Shown here: positions 52,349-64,000 of the stretch, one piece after another
How positions within the stretch are numbered: position 1 is the stretch's first letter
How the letters are laid out: each line of letters begins with the position of its first letter
Source: Rhizobium brockwellii
GTDB lineage: Bacteria > Pseudomonadota > Alphaproteobacteria > Rhizobiales > Rhizobiaceae
Direction of reading: 5' to 3'
NCBI RefSeq assembly: GCF_000769405.2
Contig: NZ_CP053439.1
Coordinates: forward strand, 3,410,001 to 3,474,000
Length of the DNA stretch: 64,000 nt
Notes under the pieces: generated by a model
Told to the model about the DNA's origin: nothing
Databases searched by the model: none
Seen by the model: only the letters and a program-made list of their open reading frames with translations
Made by a program: the position numbers and the translations under genes

Positions 52349-53476
52349 ATGGGAACGGTATCGCAGTTTCATCAGAGCCTGAGGCCACCCGCGCATCGCA
52401 TCGAAAGCGAAGAGGAGGCGATATCCACGGCCCGCGACCTCGCCGCCGCATTCCGGCATCAGGCGAGCGAACGGGATATCAACCGCATCCTGCCCTTTGC
52501 CGAGCTTGACGCGCTGTCGGTATCGGGGCTGACGGCAATTGCTGTTCCGCCAGACCATGAAGGGCTCGATATGTCGAACGCCCTGCTTGCCGAAATCGTT
52601 GCAATCATCGCCGAGGGCGATGCTTCGATCGGCGAGACGCTGGAAAGTCATTTTTCTGCGCTGGAAACGCTCCGCACCCAGGCTGCCGAGGATTTGAAGG
52701 CATCGCTGTTTGCCCGCGTGCTGCTCGGCGACCGCTTCGCCGGCGCCGCCTTCACCGACGGGGCCGAACTGACCGCCGAAGGTCCGGGCTACCGCCTGAG
52801 CGGGCGCACGCGCCAAGTGCCCGGTATACTCTTCGCCGACTGGATCGCCGCTGCCGCCACCGCCCCGCCCAGCCGCCCGGTGACGCTCTATCTCGCACGC
52901 GCTGAGGAAGGCGTGCAGGTGGTCGACGATTGGGACGGCTTCGGCCAGCGCACCAATGGCTCGGCGACGGCGATCGTCGCCACGCTTCATGTCAATGCCG
53001 ATGCGATTGCCCCTGCCCCCTCGTCCGGACATTCGACCGCCATCTCGCTCGGTCTGCTGCTCAAGGCGGGCGTCAGCCTGGGCATCGCCCGGGCCGCATG
53101 GAGCGACCTCATGATCGCAATTGGCGATCGCAGCACCAGCGTCCTTCCCCGGATCGGCGAACGCGCCATCCGTATCGAAATGGCGGCGGCCGCCTTGGAA
53201 CGGGCTGGCCGCAAACTCGACACTGCCCAGGTCAATCCTGTGGAGGCTGCGATGGCGGACGCGCATTTTTCCGCCTCGGCGGCCGCAATCCTTGCCGGGG
53301 AAACGGCGCTTGCCACCGCAAACGCGTTGTTCGAACTTGCAGGGGAAACATCGGCCGGCATCGGCCTCAATCTCGACCGCCATTGGCGCAATGCCCGCAT
53401 TCATGCGCTATCGCTGCCGCGGGATAAGCTGGTGCACACCGCGGGCGAATATATGTCGAAGGCCGGCGGCGCCTAA
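52349..53476 (+). CDS. Acyl-CoA dehydrogenase-fold flavoprotein (SfnB/DszC-like)
   Basis: This 375-residue protein fits the acyl-CoA dehydrogenase superfamily, subgroup SfnB/dibenzothiophene monooxygenase-like. An N-terminal helical domain (ISTARDLAAAFRHQASERD), a beta middle domain and a C-terminal four-helix region with NALFELAGETSAGIGLNLDRHWRNARIHAL can be followed. The RHWRNAR segment is typical of this group. Members usually oxidise sulfur compounds or act as flavin monooxygenases. Its stop codon abuts that of the convergent Rrf2 gene. Substrate unknown. Confidence 0.82.
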   Translation: MGTVSQFHQSLRPPAHRIESEEEAISTARDLAAAFRHQASERDINRILPFAELDALSVSGLTAIAVPPDHEGLDMSNALLAEIVAIIAEGDASIGETLESHFSALETLRTQAAEDLKASLFARVLLGDRFAGAAFTDGAELTAEGPGYRLSGRTRQVPGILFADWIAAAATAPPSRPVTLYLARAEEGVQVVDDWDGFGQRTNGSATAIVATLHVNADAIAPAPSSGHSTAISLGLLLKAGVSLGIARAAWSDLMIAIGDRSTSVLPRIGERAIRIEMAAAALERAGRKLDTAQVNPVEAAMADAHFSASAAAILAGETALATANALFELAGETSAGIGLNLDRHWRNARIHALSLPRDKLVHTAGEYMSKAGGA

Positions 53477-53941
53477 TCAGCTGGCGGCGGAGATCGGGAA
53501 TTCTTCCTTGGCGCCGTCGATGCTGCCGCCATCGGCGACGAATTGCTCGAGAGTCATGTTGTCGAGAATGGCGGCGATCGCGTCCCGAACATCGGTCATC
53601 GAGCGCCGCACCTGACAGGTCTCGGGATCGGCGCAGTCGTCGCAGGCCTCGTAAGCCGTACGGCTGGCGCAGCGGATCGGCGCCAACGGCCCGTCAAGCG
53701 TGCGAATGACATGGCCGATGCGGATTTCAGTTGCCGGCCGCGACAAAGAATAGCCGCCGCCCGGTCCCTTTTTAGAGCGCAGGATGCCGACATTGCGCAG
53801 TTCCAGCAGGATCGTATCGAGAAACTTCTTCGGGATATTGTTGCGGGCCGCGATGTCATTGATGAAGGCAGTCTCGCCCGGCGCCAGCCGCGCCAAGTCG
53901 ACCAGCGCCTTCAGCCCGTATTTTCCCTTTTTCGTCAACAT
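53477..53941 (-). CDS. Rrf2-family regulator with four cysteines
   Basis: This 154-residue regulator has the Rrf2 winged helix (MLTKKGKYGLKALVDLARL, PKKFLDTILLELRNVGILRSKKGPGGGYSLSRP) and a C-terminal dimer helix. C91, C100, C103 and C109 cluster as in Fe-S or redox-sensing family members such as IscR, though the spacing differs from RirA and IscR. The start at 53941 is the family start; a longer open frame exists. It converges with zero spacing on the SfnB-like gene, which suggests a shared sulfur-related role, but this is inference. Confidence 0.88.
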   Translation of the reverse strand: MLTKKGKYGLKALVDLARLAPGETAFINDIAARNNIPKKFLDTILLELRNVGILRSKKGPGGGYSLSRPATEIRIGHVIRTLDGPLAPIRCASRTAYEACDDCADPETCQVRRSMTDVRDAIAAILDNMTLEQFVADGGSIDGAKEEFPISAAS

Positions 53942-54023
53942 CGTCGTCGCCCTGTAGAAATTGCAGTATTTATCCTGCCAATAGCAGGCAAATAGCGTCA
54001 AAAGCGTGAACATACAACAAAAT

Positions 54024-54112: not shown

Positions 54113-54901
54113 TCAGATCGTCTTCAGCATGCCGCCATCGACGAAATAGGTCGAGCCGATGCAATAGCTCGCGCGCTCTGAACTCAGGAAGACGAAGACG
54201 TTTGCCAGTTCCTCCGGCGTGCCGAAGCGTTTAGAGGCGGCGTGCTCATTGGCGACGCTCTGCAGGTAGCCTTCCCAGTTCCCGCCAGTCTCGGCCGTCA
54301 ATTGTTTTGCGGTCTTGATCCAGTCGGGCGTCAGGATCAGACCGGCATTGACGCAGTTGACACGGATATTGTCCTTGATGAGCTCGGTCGAGAGCGTCTT
54401 CGAAAACATCATCAGCGCCGACTTGCTGACATTGTAGATCGGCTCGTACCAGAGTGGTTGAACGGCACAGATCGAGGCGTTGTGCAGGATCACACCGCCG
54501 CCGCGCTCCTTCATCTGCGGCGCGATGCCGCGCGCCAGCCGCACGGCGGCCATCACATGCAAGTCCCAATAGTCCTGCCACTTCTCGTCGGGCGCCTCCA
54601 TCACCGTCTCGTTCGAGCCGGTGCCGGCATTGTTGATGAGGATATCGGCGCCGCCTTTTTCGGCCGCCGCCGCAATGATCGCCTCGGTTCCCGCAACCGT
54701 CGCCACATCGGCCGCGACAGCGGTGGCGCTGACGCCGTACGTCTTGGCGATACGGGCGGCTTCCGCCTCGAGCCGTTCGCCGCCGCGCGCTGCCAGCACG
54801 AGGTCGGCGCCCTCAGCCGCCAGTCCTTCGGCGATTGCCAGCCCGATGCCGACCGACGCACCTGTTATGACGGCAATCTTTCCCTTCAATCCGAGATCCA
54901 T
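54113..54901 (-). CDS. Short-chain dehydrogenase/reductase (sugar-locus SDR)
   Basis: This 262-residue SDR has TGASVGIGLAIAEGL, ILINNAGTGSNETV, the catalytic Ser in LHNASICAVQPL and YNVSKSALMMF, and ends YCIGSTYFVDGGML. The ATG at 54901 follows GGAGGAAG; longer frames upstream are unlikely. It is divergent from the hydroxypyruvate-isomerase-like gene (142 bases apart) and probably belongs to the same catabolic locus, perhaps oxidising a sugar or sugar acid. Confidence 0.9.
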   Translation of the reverse strand: MDLGLKGKIAVITGASVGIGLAIAEGLAAEGADLVLAARGGERLEAEAARIAKTYGVSATAVAADVATVAGTEAIIAAAAEKGGADILINNAGTGSNETVMEAPDEKWQDYWDLHVMAAVRLARGIAPQMKERGGGVILHNASICAVQPLWYEPIYNVSKSALMMFSKTLSTELIKDNIRVNCVNAGLILTPDWIKTAKQLTAETGGNWEGYLQSVANEHAASKRFGTPEELANVFVFLSSERASYCIGSTYFVDGGMLKTI

Positions 54902-55043
54902 GTCTTCCTCCGCAAACGGCCGGAGATTCCGGCCTGATTGCCGAGTGTTCCGCCAATGAACCCGGGCGTCAAGCGCCTGAACTCCTCTTGCGGCAGTCTC
55001 CAATCTGTCGCATGCCTGCATCAACAGGATGGGAGGAGTTTTC

Positions 55044-55814
55044 ATGCGACGTTATTCAGCCTGCATAGAGTGGCTGTTTGCCGAAGAGGGCGACAGCTTT
55101 CCCGATCGCATCCGCCGCGCCCATGCGGCCGGCCTGACGGCGATCGAATTCTGGCGCTGGACCGACAAGGATCTGGACGCAATCGAGGCGGCGCTGAAGG
55201 AAACCGGCCTTGCCGTCACCAGCCTCGTCGCCGAACCGATGATCGCGCTGACCGACGCCGCCAACCGGCAGGCCTGGCTGAAAGGCCTTGCCGAATCCGT
55301 CAGTGTCGCGAAGCGTCTCGGCGCGCCAGTGCTGATTGCCCAGGCGGGCGACGATCTCCCAGGCTTGACCCGCAAAGAACAGCGCAGGGCACTCACCGAA
55401 ACGCTGAGAGCCGGCGCCGATATCCTCAAAGGCAGCGGTGTCCGCCTCGGCGTCGAGCCGCTCAACATCCGCATCGACCATGTCGGCTATTTCCTCGATT
55501 CGACCCGCGAAGGTCTCGACATCATCGATGACGTCGCTCGCCCCGAGATCGGTATCGTCTACGACATCTACCATTCCGCCGTGATGGACGAGCGCACCGA
55601 GGAGGTACTGAACGGCCGTCTCGACCGTATCATCCACGTCCATGTCGCCGATCACCCCGGCCGCAACGAACCGGGCTCCGGCGATATCGACCTTGCCCGA
55701 CGCCTCGGCTGGATCTTTGCCAACGGTTACGACGGCGCCGTCGGTCTGGAATACCGGCCGACCAAGTCCGGCGCGGACGCAGTCAAGGCTGCGATTGCTT
55801 CGCTCGGCGGTTAA
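55044..55814 (+). CDS. Hydroxypyruvate-isomerase-like sugar isomerase (TIM barrel)
   Basis: This 256-residue protein belongs to the AP-endonuclease-2/xylose-isomerase-like TIM-barrel group, close to Hyi. It shows ACIEWLFAEEGDSFPDRIRRAHAAG at the start, GVEPLNIRIDHVGYFL, IVYDIYHSAVMDE and HVHVADHPGRNEPGSGDID with the metal-binding Glu, Asp and His residues, then AVGLEYRPTKSG. The ATG at 55044 follows GGGAGGAG. It may interconvert a hydroxypyruvate-type or keto-sugar substrate. Its 3' end overlaps the convergent lacI-type gene by four bases. Confidence 0.88.
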   Translation: MRRYSACIEWLFAEEGDSFPDRIRRAHAAGLTAIEFWRWTDKDLDAIEAALKETGLAVTSLVAEPMIALTDAANRQAWLKGLAESVSVAKRLGAPVLIAQAGDDLPGLTRKEQRRALTETLRAGADILKGSGVRLGVEPLNIRIDHVGYFLDSTREGLDIIDDVARPEIGIVYDIYHSAVMDERTEEVLNGRLDRIIHVHVADHPGRNEPGSGDIDLARRLGWIFANGYDGAVGLEYRPTKSGADAVKAAIASLGG

Positions 55815-56830
55815 ACCTCGGCGGCATCGACGCTCGCCGCCGCCTTGCAGGGTCCGGCCGAGCGGCGCTCGATAATGCGGGAGGCAATCATGATGCGCCG
55901 CGCCGGCATTCCGGGCAGGCGTGGATTCTCGATGCGCTCGAGCAAGAGCCGCAGCCCGACCGCCCCGCATTCCTGCCCCTCCATCCTCACCGTCGTCAGC
56001 GCCGGCGAGATCTGCGTTGCGGGCGAGTAGTCGCCGAACCCGACGACCGAAATATCGTCGGGAATGCGGTATCCCTGACCGAGCAACTCGGAAACCACGG
56101 TCAGTGCCAGCCCGTCATGGGCGCAGAAAAAAGCCGTCGGCTGGATGCCTTTTTCCACGAGCGCTCGGAAGGCCGCTCTGAAGCCATTCTCTTCGTCGAA
56201 CTGCATAACATGAAGCGCAACGTCAGGATAACGTTCGGCGACTTCGCGGGCGCCGTAGTGCCGCTCTTGGCGTCCCCGCAGGCCCGGCATGCCATAGACG
56301 TAAACAATGGACCGATGGCCGAGCCCGACCAGATACTCCACCACCGCCTGCCCTGCCTCATGGTCGGTGCCACCCACATGGTCGATCTGTTCGAGCGCAT
56401 CGACCCAGCCGAAACGCACGATCGGAACGCCGGTGGCACTCACCGCCGCCACTGCCTCACGGGCATGCGGACCGACGAGCATCAGCCCGTCGCAGGTGCG
56501 CGCCAGCTCTTCCAACTGGCCCGAATCATGGGTCCAGCGTACCCGCAGCGTCATACCAAGCAGATGAGCCTCGCGCTGCACACCGTTCTGCACTTGCATA
56601 TAGAGCTCACTGTTAACGGCATCGAGATCGTGAAAGACAACCGCGACCTCGCCCGCACCACCCTGCCCAGCGGGCTTGGTATAGCCAAGGCGCTGCGCCG
56701 TCTCGCGGATCAGCGCGCGCGTTTCCTCGCTGACGCCGCTCTTGCCGGCAAGCGAGCGCGACACCGCATATTTCGACAGGCCGACCTCCCTTGCGATGGT
56801 CTGCAATGTAACCCGGCCTCTGCTTCCCAC
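55811..56830 (-). CDS. LacI-family transcriptional repressor
   Basis: This 339-residue regulator has the LacI helix-turn-helix VTLQTIAREVGLSKYAVSRSLAGKSGVSEETR (residues 7-38), hinge, and a periplasmic-binding-protein-like sugar domain (GLMLVGPHAREAV, FGWVDALEQIDHVGGTDHEAG, DDISVVGFGDYSPATQISPALTTV). It lies divergent from the ABC importer operon, which it very probably represses in the absence of its sugar ligand. A dyad lies just upstream of it. Confidence 0.93.
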   Translation of the reverse strand: MGSRGRVTLQTIAREVGLSKYAVSRSLAGKSGVSEETRALIRETAQRLGYTKPAGQGGAGEVAVVFHDLDAVNSELYMQVQNGVQREAHLLGMTLRVRWTHDSGQLEELARTCDGLMLVGPHAREAVAAVSATGVPIVRFGWVDALEQIDHVGGTDHEAGQAVVEYLVGLGHRSIVYVYGMPGLRGRQERHYGAREVAERYPDVALHVMQFDEENGFRAAFRALVEKGIQPTAFFCAHDGLALTVVSELLGQGYRIPDDISVVGFGDYSPATQISPALTTVRMEGQECGAVGLRLLLERIENPRLPGMPARRIMIASRIIERRSAGPCKAAASVDAAEV

Positions 56831-56846
56831 CTGGCACCCCTACATT

Positions 56847-56876
56847 CGGTTGATGGGACGCTGGCTATATCAACCG
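56847..56876. promoter_or_regulatory. Dyad near the LacI gene start
   Basis: CGGTTGAT at 56847-56854 and ATCAACCG at 56869-56876 form a perfect 8-bp inverted repeat 16 bases upstream of the lacI start codon. The 14-base spacer is long for a LacI operator, so this is only a candidate. Confidence 0.35.
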
Positions 56877-57010
56877 CATCCCAAAAGCAAATTTTCGCAC
56901 TAACGAAAACATAACGCTTTACCTAACAATATCCAAATGTAATCTTTCCCTCATCCCAAGCCCAATAGCAAAATAATGAATAAGGGCACGGTTTTTGGAG
57001 GAGATCCCCT

Positions 57011-58936
57011 ATGATCAAGCTGAAACGACGTGCGTTTCTGGCCGGGACGTCGGCCGCCCTGATATTGCCGGCCCTGCCGGTTTTCGCCGCTGACTTCAAG
57101 GAAGCGGATATTCTGAAAACGAAGGTGTCGAGCGGCGCCCTGCCGGGTCTGAAGGACCGGCTTCCTGAAAATCCGCTCGTCGTCAAACCAGTCGAAAGCG
57201 TCGGCAAATACGGCGGCGACTGGAACATGGCGCTGGTCGGCGGCGGGTCGCTGTCGATGCTGTTCCGCTACCAGGCCTACGAGCCGCTGCTGCGCTATAC
57301 GCCCGACTGGTCTGGCGTGACGTTGAACGTCGCCGAGTCCTTCGAGGGCGATGCCGACTCCAAGGTCTATACGATCCGCCTGCGCAAGGGCATGAAATGG
57401 TCGGACGGCCATCCCTACACCACCGCCGACATCAAGTTCTGGTACGACACCGTTTTCACCGACAAGCGCGTCGCCTTCGTCGGTCAGGATCATTGGAAGT
57501 CTGGCGGCAAGCCGGCCAAGCTGGAGATCGTCGACGAACAGACCTTCAAGGTCATCTTCGACAAGCCGAACGGCCTGTTCCCGCTGCAGGTCGCCTGGGC
57601 AAACAACGACCAGACGACGCGCACGCCGAAGCATTATCTGGAGCAGTTCCACATCGACCACAATCCGAAGGCCGATGAACTCGCCAAGCAACGCGGCTTC
57701 GAAAGCTGGATCGCCTCCTTCCAAGCTGCCGCCGGTTTCCAGGACGACAATGCCTTCTTCCTCAACTCCTCGAAGAAGCCCTGCGTCCATGCCTGGATGT
57801 TCACGATAGCGCCCGGCGAAAACACCGAACGCGCCGTTGCCGAGCGCAATCCCTACTATTGGAAGGTCGACACCGAGGGCAACCAGCTGCCCTATATGGA
57901 CCGTATCGTCTACCAGATGGTCGCCGACCCGCAGGTTCTATTGCTGAAGGCCATGCAGGGCGAAGTCGACCTGATGGACCAGTATATCGCCACACCGAAC
58001 AACAAGTCGGTTCTCTACGATGCGCGTGAGCAGGGCGGCTATGATTTCTACACACTGACCTCGACCGAAGCCAATGTGATGAATTTCATCTTCAACCTGA
58101 ACCACAATGACGAGACCAAGCGGAAGCTCTTCCGAAACAAGGATTTCCGCGCGGCACTCTCGACAGCACTCGACCGGCAGTCGCTGATCGATGCGGTGCT
58201 CGTTGGCCAGGGCGCACCTGCTCAGCCGTCGATCAAGAAGGAAGATCCGCTTTACAACGAGCAGCTCGCCACGCAGTTCACGGCCTATGACGTCGACAAG
58301 GCGAATGCCATGCTCGACCAGCTCGTGCCGAAGCGCGACGACCAGAACTTCCGCCTCGACGAAAAAGGCCGCCGCCTGACGATCATCTTCGAGATCGACC
58401 AGGCGCGCGCCGTCTTCCTCGATCTCTTCCAACTTGTCATTCCGATGTTCCAGGCGGTCGGCATCGATGCGCAGATGCGCTCGATGGACCGTTCGCTCTG
58501 GGAGACGCGCGTCCGCCAGGGCCGTGATTTCGACGCAACCGCCCACCAGTTCGGCGCAAATGGCGGCGTCGCTGCCATGCTCGACCCGCGCTATTACGTG
58601 CCGACCGATGCCAACGCCATGTATGCCCCGGCTTGGCAGCTCTGGTATCGCGACCGCGCCAATGCCAATGCCGAGGAACCGCCGGAAAGCACGAAGAACC
58701 AGCTTGCGCTCTACGACAAGCTGAAGGCGACCTCCGACGCATCAGGCCAGCGCGAGGTCATGAAGCAGATCCTGCAAGGCGCCGCCGACAATTTTTATGT
58801 CTTCGGCATCTCGCTGCCGCCTGATGGCTACGGCATCGTCAAGAATAACATGAAGAACATCACCAAGATCATGCCGAACTCCTTCGGCTGGCCGACGCCC
58901 GCTCCGACCATGCCGGAGCAGTTCTACAAGGCCTGA
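57011..58936 (+). CDS. ABC transporter substrate-binding protein, oligopeptide family (SBP_bac_5)
   Basis: This 641-residue periplasmic protein belongs to the Dpp/Opp-type binding proteins. The N-terminus KLKRRAFLAGTSAALILPALPVFA resembles a Tat signal (RRxFLxG) with cleavage near residue 26. Typical elements are LRKGMKWSDGHPYTTADIKFWYD, ERNPYYWKVDTEGNQLPYMDRIVY and FRNKDFRAALSTALDR. At over 600 residues it is of the longer group that includes AgpA, which carries alpha-galactosides in Sinorhizobium. With a LacI repressor and a glycosidase-like gene beside it, a carbohydrate ligand is more likely than a peptide. Confidence 0.92.
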   Translation: MIKLKRRAFLAGTSAALILPALPVFAADFKEADILKTKVSSGALPGLKDRLPENPLVVKPVESVGKYGGDWNMALVGGGSLSMLFRYQAYEPLLRYTPDWSGVTLNVAESFEGDADSKVYTIRLRKGMKWSDGHPYTTADIKFWYDTVFTDKRVAFVGQDHWKSGGKPAKLEIVDEQTFKVIFDKPNGLFPLQVAWANNDQTTRTPKHYLEQFHIDHNPKADELAKQRGFESWIASFQAAAGFQDDNAFFLNSSKKPCVHAWMFTIAPGENTERAVAERNPYYWKVDTEGNQLPYMDRIVYQMVADPQVLLLKAMQGEVDLMDQYIATPNNKSVLYDAREQGGYDFYTLTSTEANVMNFIFNLNHNDETKRKLFRNKDFRAALSTALDRQSLIDAVLVGQGAPAQPSIKKEDPLYNEQLATQFTAYDVDKANAMLDQLVPKRDDQNFRLDEKGRRLTIIFEIDQARAVFLDLFQLVIPMFQAVGIDAQMRSMDRSLWETRVRQGRDFDATAHQFGANGGVAAMLDPRYYVPTDANAMYAPAWQLWYRDRANANAEEPPESTKNQLALYDKLKATSDASGQREVMKQILQGAADNFYVFGISLPPDGYGIVKNNMKNITKIMPNSFGWPTPAPTMPEQFYKA

Positions 58937-58963
58937 TGGCCTTCAACCTCATGAGCCATACCA

Positions 58964-58988
58964 GGCGCCGGCCTCTCCGGTTGGCGCC
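58964..58988 (+). promoter_or_regulatory. Intercistronic hairpin after the binding protein gene
   Basis: GGCGCC at 58964-58969 pairs with GGCGCC at 58983-58988, with CCGG/CCGG pairing inside; GAGGCCCTTCTTTT follows. Such hairpins between binding protein and downstream genes often leave more binding protein mRNA than permease mRNA. Confidence 0.5.
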
Positions 58989-59014
58989 GAGGCCCTTCTT
59001 TTGCCAATGATTGG

Positions 59015-61132
59015 ATGAAGACGATGCTCGACGCCAGAAAACAGAACACCCACACGCTGAGGACGCCGGACTGGTTCAAGACCGCGACCCGATGGACCCA
59101 GCTGACCTTCGTGGAAGACGACCCGGAGAAATACGACCCGGCATTCTGGATCGATGTCTTCAAACGCACCAAATCGAACGCGGTCTGCCTCAGCGCCGGC
59201 GGCTATATCGCCTATTATCCGAGCGACGTGCCCTACCACTATGTGAGCAAATATCTCGGCGACAAGGATATCTTCGGCGCGCTCGTCGACGCCGCCCGCA
59301 AGCTCGACATGCATGTCATGGCCCGCGTCGACCCGCATGCGATCCATGACGATGCCGCCAAAGCCCATCCGGAATGGGTGATGATCAATGCCGACGGCAC
59401 GCCGCGCCGCCACTGGGCCTATCCCGATGTCTGGGTCACCAATGCCTATGGCGACTACAACAGCATCTTCATGCCTGAGGTGGTCAAGGAGATCGTCCGC
59501 AAATACGATATCGATGCGGTCTTCGCCAATCGCTGGCAGGGCCACGGCGTCGATTATAGCGAAGACAGCGCCCGCCGCTTCAAGGATATGTCCGGCCACG
59601 CCCTGCCGGTAAAACCCGATGCCGAGGATCCGGCCTGGCAGGCTTGGGTGCAATGGCGCCGCCGCGTGCTGACAGACATGATCGCGCAATGGGACGATGC
59701 CGTCAAAGCGATCCGCCCGCATGCGAGCTTCATTCCGAACATGGGCGGCGCGTCGCTGATGGAATTCGACCTCTCGGTCATCGCCAGGCACTGCCCCTTC
59801 CTCGTCGTCGACCATCAGGGCCGCAAGGGCCTCGAGCTCGGCTGGTCGGCTGGCCGCAACGGCAAGCGCATCCGCGCCACCTTCCCCGACCGCCCGGTCG
59901 TGCTGATCACCTCGATCGGCCCAGAGGAGGAATATCGCTGGAAGGATGCCGTCACCTCGGGTGAGGAGATGCAGCTCTGGATCAATGACGGCACCGCCCA
60001 CGGCCTCTACGCCTGGTTCACCAAGTTCAACGGTGTCGTGCCCGACAAACGCTGGGTCGAGCCGGTGGCCGACGCCTTCGGCCTGCAGGCAGCCGTAGAG
60101 CCGGTGCTGGAAAGCATGAAGCCGACCGCTGAAATCGCCGTCATCGATCCATCGACAACGCTGCGCCACTGGGCGCCGGAAGAGCGGCATTCCGCCGAGA
60201 AGCACGATCTCGGTCTCTATCACGCCCTCGTCGAAGCCCGGCTGCCCTTCGAGCTGCTCTCGGACCAGGTGCTGACCGAGGAAAACCTCGATCGCTTCAA
60301 GCTGATCATTCTCGCCAACGCCTCCTGCCTTTCGGATGCGCAGAACGCCGCGATCCGCGCCTATGTCGATGGTGGCGGCAGCGTGATTGCCTCTTATGAG
60401 ACCTCGCTGCGTGACGAATTCGGCAAGAGGCGTGCCGACTTCGGCCTGGCCGACGTGCTCGGCGCCAGATACGTCTCCGGCCCGCGCGGCATCGTCAAGA
60501 ACACCTATGTCGCCCTTTCCGGCGATCACCCGATCAATCGGGATTTCGACGGCGCCGAACGCATCATGGGCGGCACCCGCCTGATCCACGCCGAACCGTC
60601 GGCCGATGCCAAGACGCCCTTCCTCTATGTCCCCGATTTTCCCGATCTGCCGATGGAAGAGGTCTATCCGCGTGAAGAGCCGAAAGGTGCTGCCGTCATC
60701 GCCCGCGAAACCGGCAAGGGTGGCCGCACGGTCTATATTCCCTGGAATATCGGCGAGATCTTCTGGGAGGTCTTTGCCGTTGACCACGCCCGTCTCATCG
60801 CCAACGCCGTCCATTGGGCACTCGGCAAGACGCCGCGCGTCACCGTCAAAGGCAAGGGCGTCGTCGATCTGGCGTTGCGCGAAAACGGTGAGGGCCTGGC
60901 GCTCAGCCTCTTCAACCTCAACAATCCGATGATGATGAAAGGTCCGATCCGCGACAATTACCCCCTGGCAGCGCAGACCGTTTCGGTGGAGATTCCGGAG
61001 GGCCGATCGGTGGCGAAGGCATGGCTCGTCGTAGCCGACCGCGCCGCAAGCTTCAGCTTCGGGAATGGCCGCGCCCAGGTGGAGGTGCCTGGTATCGATC
61101 GGCTGGAGGTCCTGCATCTCACCTGGAAATGA
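59015..61132 (+). CDS. TIM-barrel glycosidase-like protein with GH42-type trimerisation domain
   Basis: This 705-residue protein lacks a signal peptide, so it should act in the cytoplasm. Residues about 30-370 look like a TIM barrel of the hypothetical glycosyl hydrolase (GHL6-like) type: FWIDVFKRTKSNAVCLSAGGYIAYYPSDVPYHYV, MHVMARVDPHAIHDDAAKAHPEWVM, DAVFANRWQGHG. Residues about 375-500 match the beta-galactosidase (GH42) trimerisation domain: IAVIDPSTTLRHW, LPFELLSDQVLTEENLDRFKLIILANASCLSDAQNAAIRAYVDGGGSVIASYETS. A beta-rich tail follows. It sits between binding protein and permease genes. It probably cleaves or modifies the imported saccharide, but no activity is known to me. Confidence 0.82.
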   Translation: MKTMLDARKQNTHTLRTPDWFKTATRWTQLTFVEDDPEKYDPAFWIDVFKRTKSNAVCLSAGGYIAYYPSDVPYHYVSKYLGDKDIFGALVDAARKLDMHVMARVDPHAIHDDAAKAHPEWVMINADGTPRRHWAYPDVWVTNAYGDYNSIFMPEVVKEIVRKYDIDAVFANRWQGHGVDYSEDSARRFKDMSGHALPVKPDAEDPAWQAWVQWRRRVLTDMIAQWDDAVKAIRPHASFIPNMGGASLMEFDLSVIARHCPFLVVDHQGRKGLELGWSAGRNGKRIRATFPDRPVVLITSIGPEEEYRWKDAVTSGEEMQLWINDGTAHGLYAWFTKFNGVVPDKRWVEPVADAFGLQAAVEPVLESMKPTAEIAVIDPSTTLRHWAPEERHSAEKHDLGLYHALVEARLPFELLSDQVLTEENLDRFKLIILANASCLSDAQNAAIRAYVDGGGSVIASYETSLRDEFGKRRADFGLADVLGARYVSGPRGIVKNTYVALSGDHPINRDFDGAERIMGGTRLIHAEPSADAKTPFLYVPDFPDLPMEEVYPREEPKGAAVIARETGKGGRTVYIPWNIGEIFWEVFAVDHARLIANAVHWALGKTPRVTVKGKGVVDLALRENGEGLALSLFNLNNPMMMKGPIRDNYPLAAQTVSVEIPEGRSVAKAWLVVADRAASFSFGNGRAQVEVPGIDRLEVLHLTWK

Positions 61133-61154
61133 GGTGATACGCGACGAAGGAGCG

Positions 61155-61177
61155 CTTTCGGCCTGGAGGGCCGAAGG
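61155..61177 (+). promoter_or_regulatory. Intercistronic hairpin before the permease genes
   Basis: TTCGGCC and GGCCGAA form a perfect 7-bp stem with a 5-base loop in the 104-base gap before the first permease gene. No U-tract follows, so processing or mRNA protection is more likely than full termination. Confidence 0.4.
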
Positions 61178-61236
61178 CGGGTGAAGATCCGGGGGAAGCG
61201 CGTCACAGCGTTCCCGACGGGAGGAGAAACGTTTCG

Positions 61237-62223
61237 ATGCTTGGCTATATCTTCAAGCGCGTGCTCTACATGATCCCGACCTTGTTTGGCATGTCGCTGA
61301 TCTCGTTCCTGATCATTCAGCTGCCGCCGGGTGACTATCTGACGTCGATGATCGCCACCATGAGCGACAGCGGCCAGACCGTCGATCCCGCGCAGATCGA
61401 GCGGCTGAAGGAAATCTACGGCTTCGACGACCCCTTCTATGTGCAATATCTGAAATGGATCTGGGGCATCGTCAGCCGCGGCGACTTCGGCTACTCCTTC
61501 GAGTGGGGCCAGCCCGTCTCCGGGCTGATCTGGGCGCGCATGGGCTCGACGCTAGTAATCTCGCTCTTGAGCCTGCTCTTCGTCTGGATCGTGGCTTTGC
61601 CGATCGGCATCTATTCCGCTGTCCGCCGCCACTCCATCGGCGACCACGTCTTCACCTTTCTCGGCTTCATCGGCCTTGCCGTGCCGAACTTCATCCTGGC
61701 GCTGACGCTGATGTACGTCGCCTATAAATATCTCGGCCAGAGCGTCGGCGGGCTGATCTCGCCGGAATATGCCGAGGCGCCCTGGAGCCTCGCCAAGGTC
61801 GGCGATTTCCTCGCCCATCTCTGGATCCCGATCATCATCATCGGCGCATCCGGAACGGCAGCGATGATCCGCATCCTGCGCGCCAACCTGACCGACGAAC
61901 TGCATAAGCCCTATGTCGTCACCGCCCGCGCCAAGGGACTGCCGGAATACAAGGTCATCTTGAAATATCCGGTCAGAATCGCCCTCAATCCCTTCGTCTC
62001 GGCGATCGGCTGGGTGCTGCCGCATCTCGTCTCCGGCGTGACGATCACCGCCATCGTGCTGAACCTTCCGACCGCAGGTCCCCTGCTTTTCCGCGCGCTG
62101 ATCTCGCAGGACATGTATCTCGCCGGCAGTTTCATCCTGCTTTTGAGCGCGCTGACCCTTGTCGGCATGCTGCTGTCGGATCTGCTGCTGGCGCTGCTCG
62201 ATCCGCGCATCCGGTTCAATTGA
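61237..62223 (+). CDS. ABC transporter permease, DppB/OppB type
   Basis: This 328-residue inner-membrane permease begins MLGYIFKRVLYMIPTLFGMSLISFLIIQLPPGDYL, the standard DppB start, and has six helices and the EAA loop LHKPYVVTARAKGLPEYKVILKYPVR. It pairs with the next gene's product to form the channel for the imported solute. It follows GGGAGGAG and lies 10 bases before the next permease gene. Confidence 0.95.
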   Translation: MLGYIFKRVLYMIPTLFGMSLISFLIIQLPPGDYLTSMIATMSDSGQTVDPAQIERLKEIYGFDDPFYVQYLKWIWGIVSRGDFGYSFEWGQPVSGLIWARMGSTLVISLLSLLFVWIVALPIGIYSAVRRHSIGDHVFTFLGFIGLAVPNFILALTLMYVAYKYLGQSVGGLISPEYAEAPWSLAKVGDFLAHLWIPIIIIGASGTAAMIRILRANLTDELHKPYVVTARAKGLPEYKVILKYPVRIALNPFVSAIGWVLPHLVSGVTITAIVLNLPTAGPLLFRALISQDMYLAGSFILLLSALTLVGMLLSDLLLALLDPRIRFN

Positions 62224-62233
62224 GGGGAATGCG

Positions 62234-63424
62234 ATGAGCACGCACGAAACCTTCGGAAACCACGCTGGTCCGCTTCACACTGTTGCCGATGGCCCCTCGA
62301 TCAGCCCGCTGAAACAGGGCAAGACCGTCTCGACCGCCGCGATCGGCCCCTGGCGGCTGGTCGCCGGCAAACTGGTCCGCCAGAAGGTGGCGATGGTGGC
62401 CGGGGCAATCATTCTCTTCCTCTATCTGGTCGGTCTCTTCGCCGAATTCCTGGCACCGGCTTTGCCGATGACCTCGCGGCCGCAATATACCTATGCTCCG
62501 CCGCAGGGCTTCAGCTTCTTCGTCGAAAAACCGGACGGCAGCTCGGAGTTCAATTTCCATGTGAAGGGCTACAAGGTCGAGATCGACAAGGTGGCGCTGC
62601 GCCGCACCTTCGTCGTCGACGACACCAAGGTCGTCCCGATCGGCTTCTTCGTCAAAGGCGCGGCCTACGATCTCTGGGGCCTGATCCCGATGAACCGCCA
62701 CCTGATCGGCCCCCTCAACCAGAACGACCCGATGTATCTGCTCGGTGCCGACCGGCTCGGCCGCGACGTCTTCTCGCGCCTCGTCTACGGCACCCGCGTA
62801 TCCATGTCGATCGGCCTCGTCGGCGTCGCCATGTCGCTGATCCTGGGCGTCGTGCTCGGATCCATCTCCGGCTTCTACGGCGGCTGGGTCGATACGCTGA
62901 TCCAGCGCGTCATCGAGGTCGTCAGCGCCATGCCGACCATCCCCCTATGGCTCGGCCTGGCGGCGGCGATCCCGCTGACATGGTCGCCGGTCAATGTCTA
63001 TTTCGTTATAACGATTATCGTCTCGCTGCTCGGCTGGACCAGCCTCGCGCGAGAGGTGCGCGGCAGGTTCCTGGCGCTGCGCAGCGAGGATTTCGTCGTC
63101 GCCGCCCGGCTCGACGGATCGAGCGAAGCACGGCTGATCTTCCGCCACATCCTGCCGTCGCTGACGAGCCACATCCTTGCGGTCGTGACACTGGCCGTGC
63201 CGACCATGATCGTCGCCGAAACCTCGCTTTCCTTCCTCGGCATCGGTCTCAAACCACCGGTCGTCAGCTGGGGCGTGCTGCTGCAGGACGCCCAGAACAT
63301 CCGCACCGTCGCGACCGCGCCGTGGCTGTTGATCTGGCCGTCGCTCGCGGTCGTCGTCGCCGTCCTGTCCTTCAATTTCTTCGGCGACGGCCTCCGCGAT
63401 GCCGCCGACCCCTACGACAATTGA
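62234..63424 (+). CDS. ABC transporter permease, DppC/OppC type, with large insertion
   Basis: This 396-residue permease has the DppC core: LGADRLGRDVFSRLVYGTRVSMSIGLVGV, the EAA loop RSEDFVVAARLDGSSEARLIFRHILPS, and ETSLSFLGIGLKPPVVSWGVLLQDAQN. Between helix 1 (about residues 55-75) and the core lies a periplasmic segment of about 95 residues (RPQYTYAPPQGFSFFVEKPDGSSEFNFH and following), absent from standard DppC. The ATG at 62234 follows GAGGGG. The insertion resembles that in other long rhizobial sugar-type permeases and may contact the binding protein. Confidence 0.93.
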   Translation: MSTHETFGNHAGPLHTVADGPSISPLKQGKTVSTAAIGPWRLVAGKLVRQKVAMVAGAIILFLYLVGLFAEFLAPALPMTSRPQYTYAPPQGFSFFVEKPDGSSEFNFHVKGYKVEIDKVALRRTFVVDDTKVVPIGFFVKGAAYDLWGLIPMNRHLIGPLNQNDPMYLLGADRLGRDVFSRLVYGTRVSMSIGLVGVAMSLILGVVLGSISGFYGGWVDTLIQRVIEVVSAMPTIPLWLGLAAAIPLTWSPVNVYFVITIIVSLLGWTSLAREVRGRFLALRSEDFVVAARLDGSSEARLIFRHILPSLTSHILAVVTLAVPTMIVAETSLSFLGIGLKPPVVSWGVLLQDAQNIRTVATAPWLLIWPSLAVVVAVLSFNFFGDGLRDAADPYDN

Positions 63425-63434
63425 GGAGGAAACC

Positions 63435-64000
63435 ATGACCGATCTTTCAGACGACGTCGTTCTCTCCGTCGAAAACCTTTCGATCGATTTCAGGCTGCGC
63501 ACCCACATCCTGCACGCCGTCGAAAATGTCAGCTTCGAGCTGAAACGCGGTCAGACGCTCTGTCTCGTCGGCGAAAGCGGCTCCGGTAAGAGCGTCACCG
63601 CCCGCTCGCTCCTGCAGATCGTCGACAGCCCCGGCAGCATCGTTTCCGGCCGCATCCTGCTCAACAACGGCGACGGGGTCACCGGGAGTAACGGCATCAC
63701 CGATATCGCCGCGCTGAAACCGTCAGACCGGGCGATGCGCGCCATCCGCGGCCGTCGTATCGGCCTGATCTTCCAGGAGCCGATGAGCTCGCTGTCACCG
63801 GTCCATACCATTGGCTCGCAGATCATCGAGGCCGTGCGCCTGCACAGCAATCTCGATCAGCGTGCCGCCCGCGAAAGGACCATCGAACTGCTGCGCCAGG
63901 TCGAAATTCCGAACCCGGACAAGATGGCCGACCGCTACACCTTCGAGTTCTCCGGCGGCATGCGCCAGCGCGCCATGATCGCCATGGCACTTGCCGGCAA
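63435..64000 (+). CDS. ABC transporter ATP-binding protein, DppD/OppD type (partial)
   Basis: The gene starts with ATG after GAGGAGGAAACC and runs off the right edge, leaving about 188 residues. It shows Walker [12 protein letters not shown], the Q-loop [20 protein letters not shown] and the signature [15 protein letters not shown]. It energises the two permeases just upstream. A second ATPase or a fused double ATPase should follow outside the window. Confidence 0.93.

Follow-up and report, generated by a model that had tools for sequence, protein, structure and literature searches.

The Agp importer of rhizobia is an Opp-type sugar importer with an SBP_bac_5 protein, and is partnered with alpha-galactosidases. 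A second described system includes SPH1118, the pectin-binding protein of Sphingomonas sp. A1, which according to the available part of PMC7055323 is needed for chemotaxis towards pectin and for full pectin assimilation, the mutant still growing somewhat. In the available part of PMC9314435, residues Arg57, Arg438, Arg466 and Arg496 of SPH1118 hydrogen-bond an unsaturated trigalacturonate within a positively charged cleft. The DNA studied here is a stretch of 64,000 nucleotides from Rhizobium brockwellii (G000:C1:3410001-3474000; the window, below, is this whole stretch), and the system in question is an operon that joins an Opp-type ATP-binding cassette importer to a 705-residue glycosidase-like protein. 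One interpretation of the data, which we regard as evenly balanced, is that a LacI-controlled unit of eight genes brings in an anionic plant oligosaccharide, probably one containing a uronic acid, cleaves it in the cytoplasm and passes a three-carbon (C3) acid on to glycerate. The unit would comprise a solute-binding protein (SBP), the 705-residue enzyme, two permeases, a fused ATPase, HYI, GARR and a GH42 protein. Saccharide import as such is well supported, and the operon is a real, compact, conserved and probably self-regulated saccharide uptake unit.

An earlier note on this DNA had proposed that the locus imports and breaks down a saccharide and that the gene of a cytoplasmic glycosidase-like protein sits inside the transporter operon, and the present analysis supports that proposal. 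The gene types named there (LacI repressor, importer, long binding protein, 705-residue protein, isomerase-like enzyme and short-chain dehydrogenase/reductase (SDR)) were all recovered intact as open reading frames (ORFs) with Pfam or NCBIfam matches. The operon is larger than first reported, and an uncharacterised enzyme clade lies at its centre. The operon was found to run on for about 5 kb past the window, through the end of the ATPase gene and then HYI, GARR and GH42 (L002:13173-17050, an L002 position being the window position minus 52000). The full ATPase ORF contained two ABC_tran and two oligo_HPY stretches. The eight genes may well form one transcript; a promoter and terminator scan of L002:2000-18500 gave 2 and 12 hits, against 3.7 and 12.3 in shuffled sequence. 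No description of this locus was found in the accessible portion of the open-access literature.

Conservation was assessed in 81 loci: one relative search supplied 71, and the other ten came out of plasmid records and searches. The core counts refer to presence in the locus among 61 loci with a 705-residue protein of at least 60% identity; near-identical strains are included and the counts are not independent. Upstream genes were counted where the locus extended upstream by at least 5 kb (57 loci) and downstream genes where it extended downstream by at least 7 kb (59 loci), using identity thresholds of at least 45% for LacI and the accessory genes and 40% for the others. An SBP homologue was present in 57/57 loci, and both permeases and the ATPase in 59/59, so the gene arrangement is more than chance; LacI was kept in 56/57. 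HYI was found in 50, GARR in 41 and GH42 in 46 of the 59. One of the 57 loci, L037, carries the SBP and importer genes on the opposite strand. The gene set first proposed stands in its LacI-SBP-705-residue protein-importer core, which is near-constant, but not in its SDR and first isomerase-like gene, which together with an Rrf2-type regulator form a block with a distribution of its own (each gene in 16 of the 57 loci). The commoner accessory enzymes are HYI, GARR and GH42, in some relatives with a glycerate kinase, all beyond the window.

Four further loci carry a 705-residue protein at 50-60% identity, and all three with enough DNA have the SBP and importer, while HYI, GARR and GH42 were found in none of the three. 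Among the 16 loci under 50%, the SBP was present in 0/10 with enough upstream DNA, and HYI together with GARR in 1/11, from Sphingobium. The nearest named relatives were mostly strains of the Rhizobium leguminosarum complex (97-99%, best segment). The 705-residue protein is patchy in its distribution, being found (alignment A1, E 1e-30) in 4/247 genomes of the family and 2/385 of the class, its own included, and in none of the three same-genus genomes listed in the family survey.

The best match of the SBP in the PDB was SPH1118 (E 9.6e-94), with 5IPW at 1.2e-79 and AgpA at 2e-23. The four SPH1118 arginines named above correspond to Arg86, Arg466, Arg494 and Arg527 of the window SBP, all four being kept. 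They occur together in 63 of 65 alignment rows (the window SBP is in twice; 63 distinct sequences), the other two rows being second binding proteins, 32% identical, from Devosia loci; 5IPW keeps one of the four. For the SPH1118 stacking residues Phe592 and Trp594, HMMER pairs FGWP with FGWP and MAFFT shifts the segment by two. Because SPH1118 is its closest solved relative and four ligand-contacting arginines are retained, an anionic ligand is favoured for the SBP, its identity not being fixed; the solute may include a uronide.

The 705-residue protein passed the gathering cut-offs of GHL6 (PF14871; 53.7 against 35 bits) and GHL10 (43.5 against 27.9). It combines a TIM barrel, a Rossmann-like domain and a C-terminal beta domain, the overall fold of GH151, and GH151 ranked nearest and GH42 second when folds were compared. 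The earlier note had described a TIM barrel plus GH42 trimerisation domain. The barrel was borne out, whereas the trimerisation domain stayed under its cut-off (19.5 against 25.8 bits), the nearest fold is GH151 and the GH151 nucleophile is absent; ThuA was also under cut-off (25.4 against 33.4). Profile searches placed the protein in no characterised non-glycosidase family, which agrees with that note, but in no characterised glycosidase family either. It is probably cytoplasmic.

The GH151 nucleophile aspartate (D154 of ALfuk2, after strand beta4) was found to be replaced by Asn172, the same column being obtained with HMMER, hhalign and three MAFFT modes. Asparagine occupies the position in 119 of the 120 best homologues, the last being gapped, and in 12/12 rows of an alignment reaching 22% identity; aspartate occupies it in 120/120 of the GH151 group. 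For the GH151 acid/base glutamate (E235 of ALfuk2, beta6), Asp266 and Gln268 are both candidates, as the beta6 alignments are unreliable or disagree; Gln268, two residues past Asp266, is present in 120/120 homologues. His503, contributed in GH151 by the neighbouring subunit and histidine in 120/120 of that group, is paired by hhalign with Arg553 (read by eye; the local alignment is uncertain). The pocket residues Arg104, Asp106, Asn172-Arg-Trp, Asp266-x-Gln-x-Arg270 and Arg-Trp-Lys-Asp 308-311 are each kept in 119 or 120 of the 120. In a 26-row tree the Asn-type clade of GHL6 separated from GH151 with 100/100 support.

A true GH151-type relative of the alpha-L-fucosidases, with the nucleophile aspartate, is encoded elsewhere in the genome (G000:C2:652238-654289, L091:10238-12289; E 8e-142 to 6tvk). 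Its cluster, apart from this operon, contains UgpC-like genes together with one that by eye is GH95-like.

Downstream, GARR passed the tartronate semialdehyde reductase model TIGR01505 (392.1 against 340.75) and HYI passed the hydroxypyruvate isomerase model TIGR03234 (356.1 against 353.45), each being the sole protein of the genome over the NCBIfam cut-off concerned. The GH42 protein scored 152.8 against 21 bits in Pfam, and in an alignment with 9ta3 its Glu164 and Glu318 lie at what we take to be the GH42 motif positions. Two other sources of substrate for HYI and GARR were considered and rejected. No glyoxylate carboligase in the genome was over cut-off, so glyoxylate assimilation does not explain the C3 acid. 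The tetronate pathway was set aside because the genome's two other HYI/GARR-like pairs (L092, L093) adjoin DUF1537-type kinases (by eye) and the operon pair does not. Tartronate semialdehyde is the expected C3 product of an aldarate made from a uronic acid, and a route from uronic acid through aldarate to tartronate semialdehyde, not encoded in the operon, could supply it. The genome's single MOFRL glycerate kinase is located away from the operon; such a kinase follows GARR in L033, L044-L049 and L051, and lies downstream of GH42 in L065. On a plasmid of Sphingobium sp. TomTYG74 (L074:5978-26082), two relatives of the 705-residue protein, one over the GHL6 cut-off and one 38.6% identical, flank genes annotated glxR, hyi and D-glycerate 2-kinase.

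An 18-bp motif, ATAACGCTTTACCTAACA, was found with at most two mismatches in the LacI-SBP intergenic region of all 59 loci that have one (42 exact, 13 with one mismatch, four with two), and in 0/22 of the remaining loci at up to three mismatches. It occurs once in the window, exactly, where 0.01 matches are expected at up to three mismatches. In the whole genome this exact copy is the only one, and a second match has three mismatches; a reversed control pattern also gave two genome matches at up to three mismatches, so the second match is not above background. Since the motif has a single exact genomic copy and recurs between LacI and the SBP, the repressor looks dedicated and local, and LacI would be expected to bind there. 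In Rhizobium sp. NFR07 (L033:1423-21282) the motif precedes two duplicated LacI-SBP units, one continuing with GH42 and the other with the 705-residue enzyme, importer, HYI, GARR and glycerate kinase, which suggests that GH42 and the 705-residue enzyme probably answer to one signal. A second GHL6 gene, 22% identical, follows the two NFR07 units (L033:19207-21282).

According to the favoured interpretation, the importer would bring in the oligosaccharide, from which the 705-residue enzyme would remove one sugar and GH42 a beta-galactoside-type sugar. Most likely the 705-residue enzyme would hydrolyse its substrate without a covalent intermediate, Asn172 positioning water and an acidic residue (candidate Asp266) donating the proton. 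In GH95 fucosidases, asparagines serve as base, as stated in the available part of a review (PMC10154630). The acidic sugar would later release tartronate semialdehyde or hydroxypyruvate by a route that is presumed here; HYI would interconvert the C3 acid and GARR would reduce it to glycerate. Glycolysis would then receive the glycerate through a glycerate kinase, whose gene adjoins the unit in some relatives and lies elsewhere in this genome. A bolder proposal, which we hold tentatively and would rate somewhat short of even, is that Asn-type GHL6 is a glycoside-cleaving family on the GH151 scaffold without a carboxylate nucleophile (using Asn-positioned water or another non-covalent route), that in rhizobia it processes imported acidic plant oligosaccharides, the acidic sugar passing to tartronate semialdehyde and glycerate, and that its repressor has a single genomic operator.

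Several observations weigh against the favoured interpretation. With the nucleophile gone, hydrolysis by the 705-residue protein is unproven. Of the eleven hydrogen-bonding residues of SPH1118, only the four arginines are identical in the window SBP; Glu216 is Asp, the remaining six differ (Asn53 to Ser, Leu295 to Tyr, Ser298 to Ala, Asn324 to Glu, Asp483 to His and Glu505 to Asn), and Arg47 and Arg294, which contact MES (2-(N-morpholino)ethanesulfonic acid) in SPH1118, are Val and Gln. HYI also passes the 2-oxo-tetronate isomerase model NF043033 (364.7 against 325), which still fits despite the rejection of a tetronate pathway. No uronate dehydrogenase, aldarate dehydratase or aldolase was found in the operon, a GarL aldolase was rejected in the genome at 302.8 against a cut-off of 406.75, and at 45% identity both HYI and GARR are missing from 9/59 relatives. 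To these are added the sugar genes beside some distant relatives and the closeness of the SBP to an oligopeptide-binding protein, both taken up below.

The main rival, an unlikely one in our estimate, is a fucoside or L-fucose-like system. Here the 705-residue protein would free an L-fucose-type sugar (fucose, L-galactose or a methylated form) from a plant oligosaccharide, for example a piece of xyloglucan or arabinogalactan, leaving an exposed galactose for GH42 to take off. Fucosylated plant side chains carry beta-galactose, and a GH151 alpha-L-fucosidase is the closest characterised fold and family. It owes its place to L-fucose-type genes beside distant relatives. In the alphaproteobacterial loci L066, L067, L068 and L070 (38-40% identity), a UxaA-type dehydratase and a fucP-class major facilitator superfamily (MFS) transporter lie near the relative, with a fuconolactonase-like amidohydrolase in L066 and L070 and a RhaM-type mutarotase and SDR in L067, a gene set that recalls non-phosphorylating L-fucose pathways; in L069 neither the dehydratase nor the transporter was found near the relative. 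In Sinorhizobium sp. B11, genes annotated as alpha-L-fucosidase and GH95 are found close to a relative of 26% identity. However, the amidohydrolases and the dehydratase stay under the fuconolactonase and galactarate dehydratase cut-offs, and the L067 transporter passes one fucP model and fails another. The Asn at the nucleophile position also tells against a fucosidase, as does the genome's true GH151 in its separate cluster with a GH95-like gene; no fucose-pathway gene was seen in the operon, and the SBP arginines favour an anion. In L070, a 5-dehydro-4-deoxyglucarate dehydratase over cut-off and a Pect-lyase_RHGA_epim protein (79% match in L067) suit acidic sugars. Mandelate-racemase-type enzymes are annotated near the 26-28% relatives, adjacent in one and about 5-11 kb away in others.

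The 705-residue protein might instead be no hydrolase at all, but a lyase, a hydrating enzyme or a non-catalytic sugar sensor on the GH151 scaffold, with GH42 alone cutting. The invariance of the asparagine even in distant rows would suit this, and Gln268 could occupy the acid/base position; yet the strongly conserved pocket suggests catalysis, and the N-terminal stretch of a Sphingobium relative is Tat-signal-like (by eye), which fits a cofactor-free exported enzyme. This explanation is judged doubtful and placed after the fucoside system. Import of an oligopeptide or peptide-like solute, with unrelated enzymes alongside, is considered very improbable. Opp and Gsi models did give the best scores, under their cut-offs, for both permeases and for the portion of the ATPase inside the window, and 5IPW, annotated as oligopeptide-binding, was the second-best structure for the SBP (272 against 318 bits); the authors on SPH1118 allow that it too may bind oligopeptides (PMC7055323, available part). 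Against this, the unit repeatedly includes enzymes of glycosidase fold and of sugar-acid metabolism, domain scans found no peptidase domain in its proteins, and the SBP is somewhat nearer SPH1118, with four of its arginines kept against one in 5IPW. Peptide import by a homologous locus, which the earlier note would have taken as contrary evidence, appeared nowhere in the accessible parts of the literature examined.

The features are collected in Table 1. Of the two upstream enzymes, the SDR passed the cut-off of 0/25 shown NCBIfam models (of 228), and the first isomerase-like protein scored 150 bits with TIGR03234 against a cut-off of 353. An acyl-CoA-dehydrogenase-like gene and an Rrf2-type regulator (names by eye) occupy window positions 52349-54013 and accompany these two genes in 16 relatives, possibly with a separate function. 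Downstream of GH42, a 183-residue protein (L002:17055-17606, minus strand) matched no Pfam or NCBIfam model at E 0.001 and was seen only in the closest relatives (L003-L006, L036, L039, L050). In Devosia (L057:1-7579; L058 similar), the system has as its neighbour another, divergent Opp importer, accompanied by BNR-repeat (sialidase-like) proteins, of which L057 has two. The Sphingobium locus L074 also contains a cyclase-family protein and a lactate-permease-family transporter; a link to tomatine breakdown was considered for it and rejected, the terms hydroxypyruvate, oxopropionate, GHL6, glycerate and galacturon being absent from the accessible main text of PMC10653915. An oligogalacturonate lyase was likewise rejected as the identity of the PD40 gene that neighbours the Shinella relative, where only PD40 was found.

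Table 1. Features of the locus, in window positions unless marked L002.
Feature	Position	Strand	Remarks
SDR dehydrogenase	54113-54892	-	adh_short over Pfam cut-off; neighbour outside conserved unit
Hydroxypyruvate-isomerase-like TIM-barrel protein	55029-55814	+	AP_endonuc_2 over cut-off; neighbour outside conserved unit
LacI-family repressor	55811-56830	-	Pfam LacI and Peripla_BP_3 over cut-off; divergent from operon
Putative operator/regulatory motif ATAACGCTTTACCTAACA	56911-56928	+	between LacI and SBP; presumed function
SBP_bac_5 solute-binding protein, 641 residues	57011-58936	+	Pfam 177.5 bits
705-residue TIM-barrel, Rossmann and beta protein, Asn-type GHL6	59015-61132	+	Pfam GHL6, GHL10
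OppB-type permease	61237-62223	+	BPD_transp_1 over cut-off
OppC-type permease	62234-63424	+	BPD_transp_1, OppC_N over cut-off; start by eye
Fused OppD-OppF-type ATPase	~63435-64000	+	start by eye; cut by window end; ORF L002:11399-13162
HYI	L002:13173-13967		beyond window
GARR	L002:13961-14839		beyond window; start overlaps HYI stop
GH42 protein, 700 residues	L002:14948-17050		beyond window

If the favoured interpretation is true, the unit represents a testable uptake route for acidic cell-wall fragments in plant-associated Rhizobiaceae, some Devosia, Microvirga, Martelella and others, and its central enzyme belongs to a large clade that has an amide at the position where a glycosidase family has its accepted catalytic residue. 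With so compact a unit and an operator-like motif, reporter and deletion tests are straightforward.

Among described systems, the SPH1118 importer of Sphingomonas sp. A1 resembles this one in having the nearest solved relative of the SBP, with the four arginines in common and the FGWP segments paired in the HMMER alignment but offset in MAFFT. It differs in seven of the eleven hydrogen-bonding contacts, and the available part of PMC7055323 mentions no glycosidase among its importer genes, sph1114-sph1118. The Agp alpha-galactoside importer (6epy, periplasmic alpha-galactoside-binding protein) likewise has a long SBP, from which that of the window is far more distant (E 2e-23 against 1e-93 for SPH1118). 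The last gene of the operon, over the GH42 cut-off and with both motif glutamates, is like the GH42 beta-galactosidases Gan42B (4oif) and BiBga42A (8ibr), but its activity is predicted and it shares its operon with HYI, GARR and an Opp importer. For the 705-residue enzyme, the GH151 alpha-L-fucosidases (ALfuk2, PDB 6tvk; Mfuc3; Blon_0346) offer the closest characterised fold and family; unlike them it has asparagine for the nucleophile aspartate and falls in a separate clade, and fucosidase activity in this enzyme is hypothetical.

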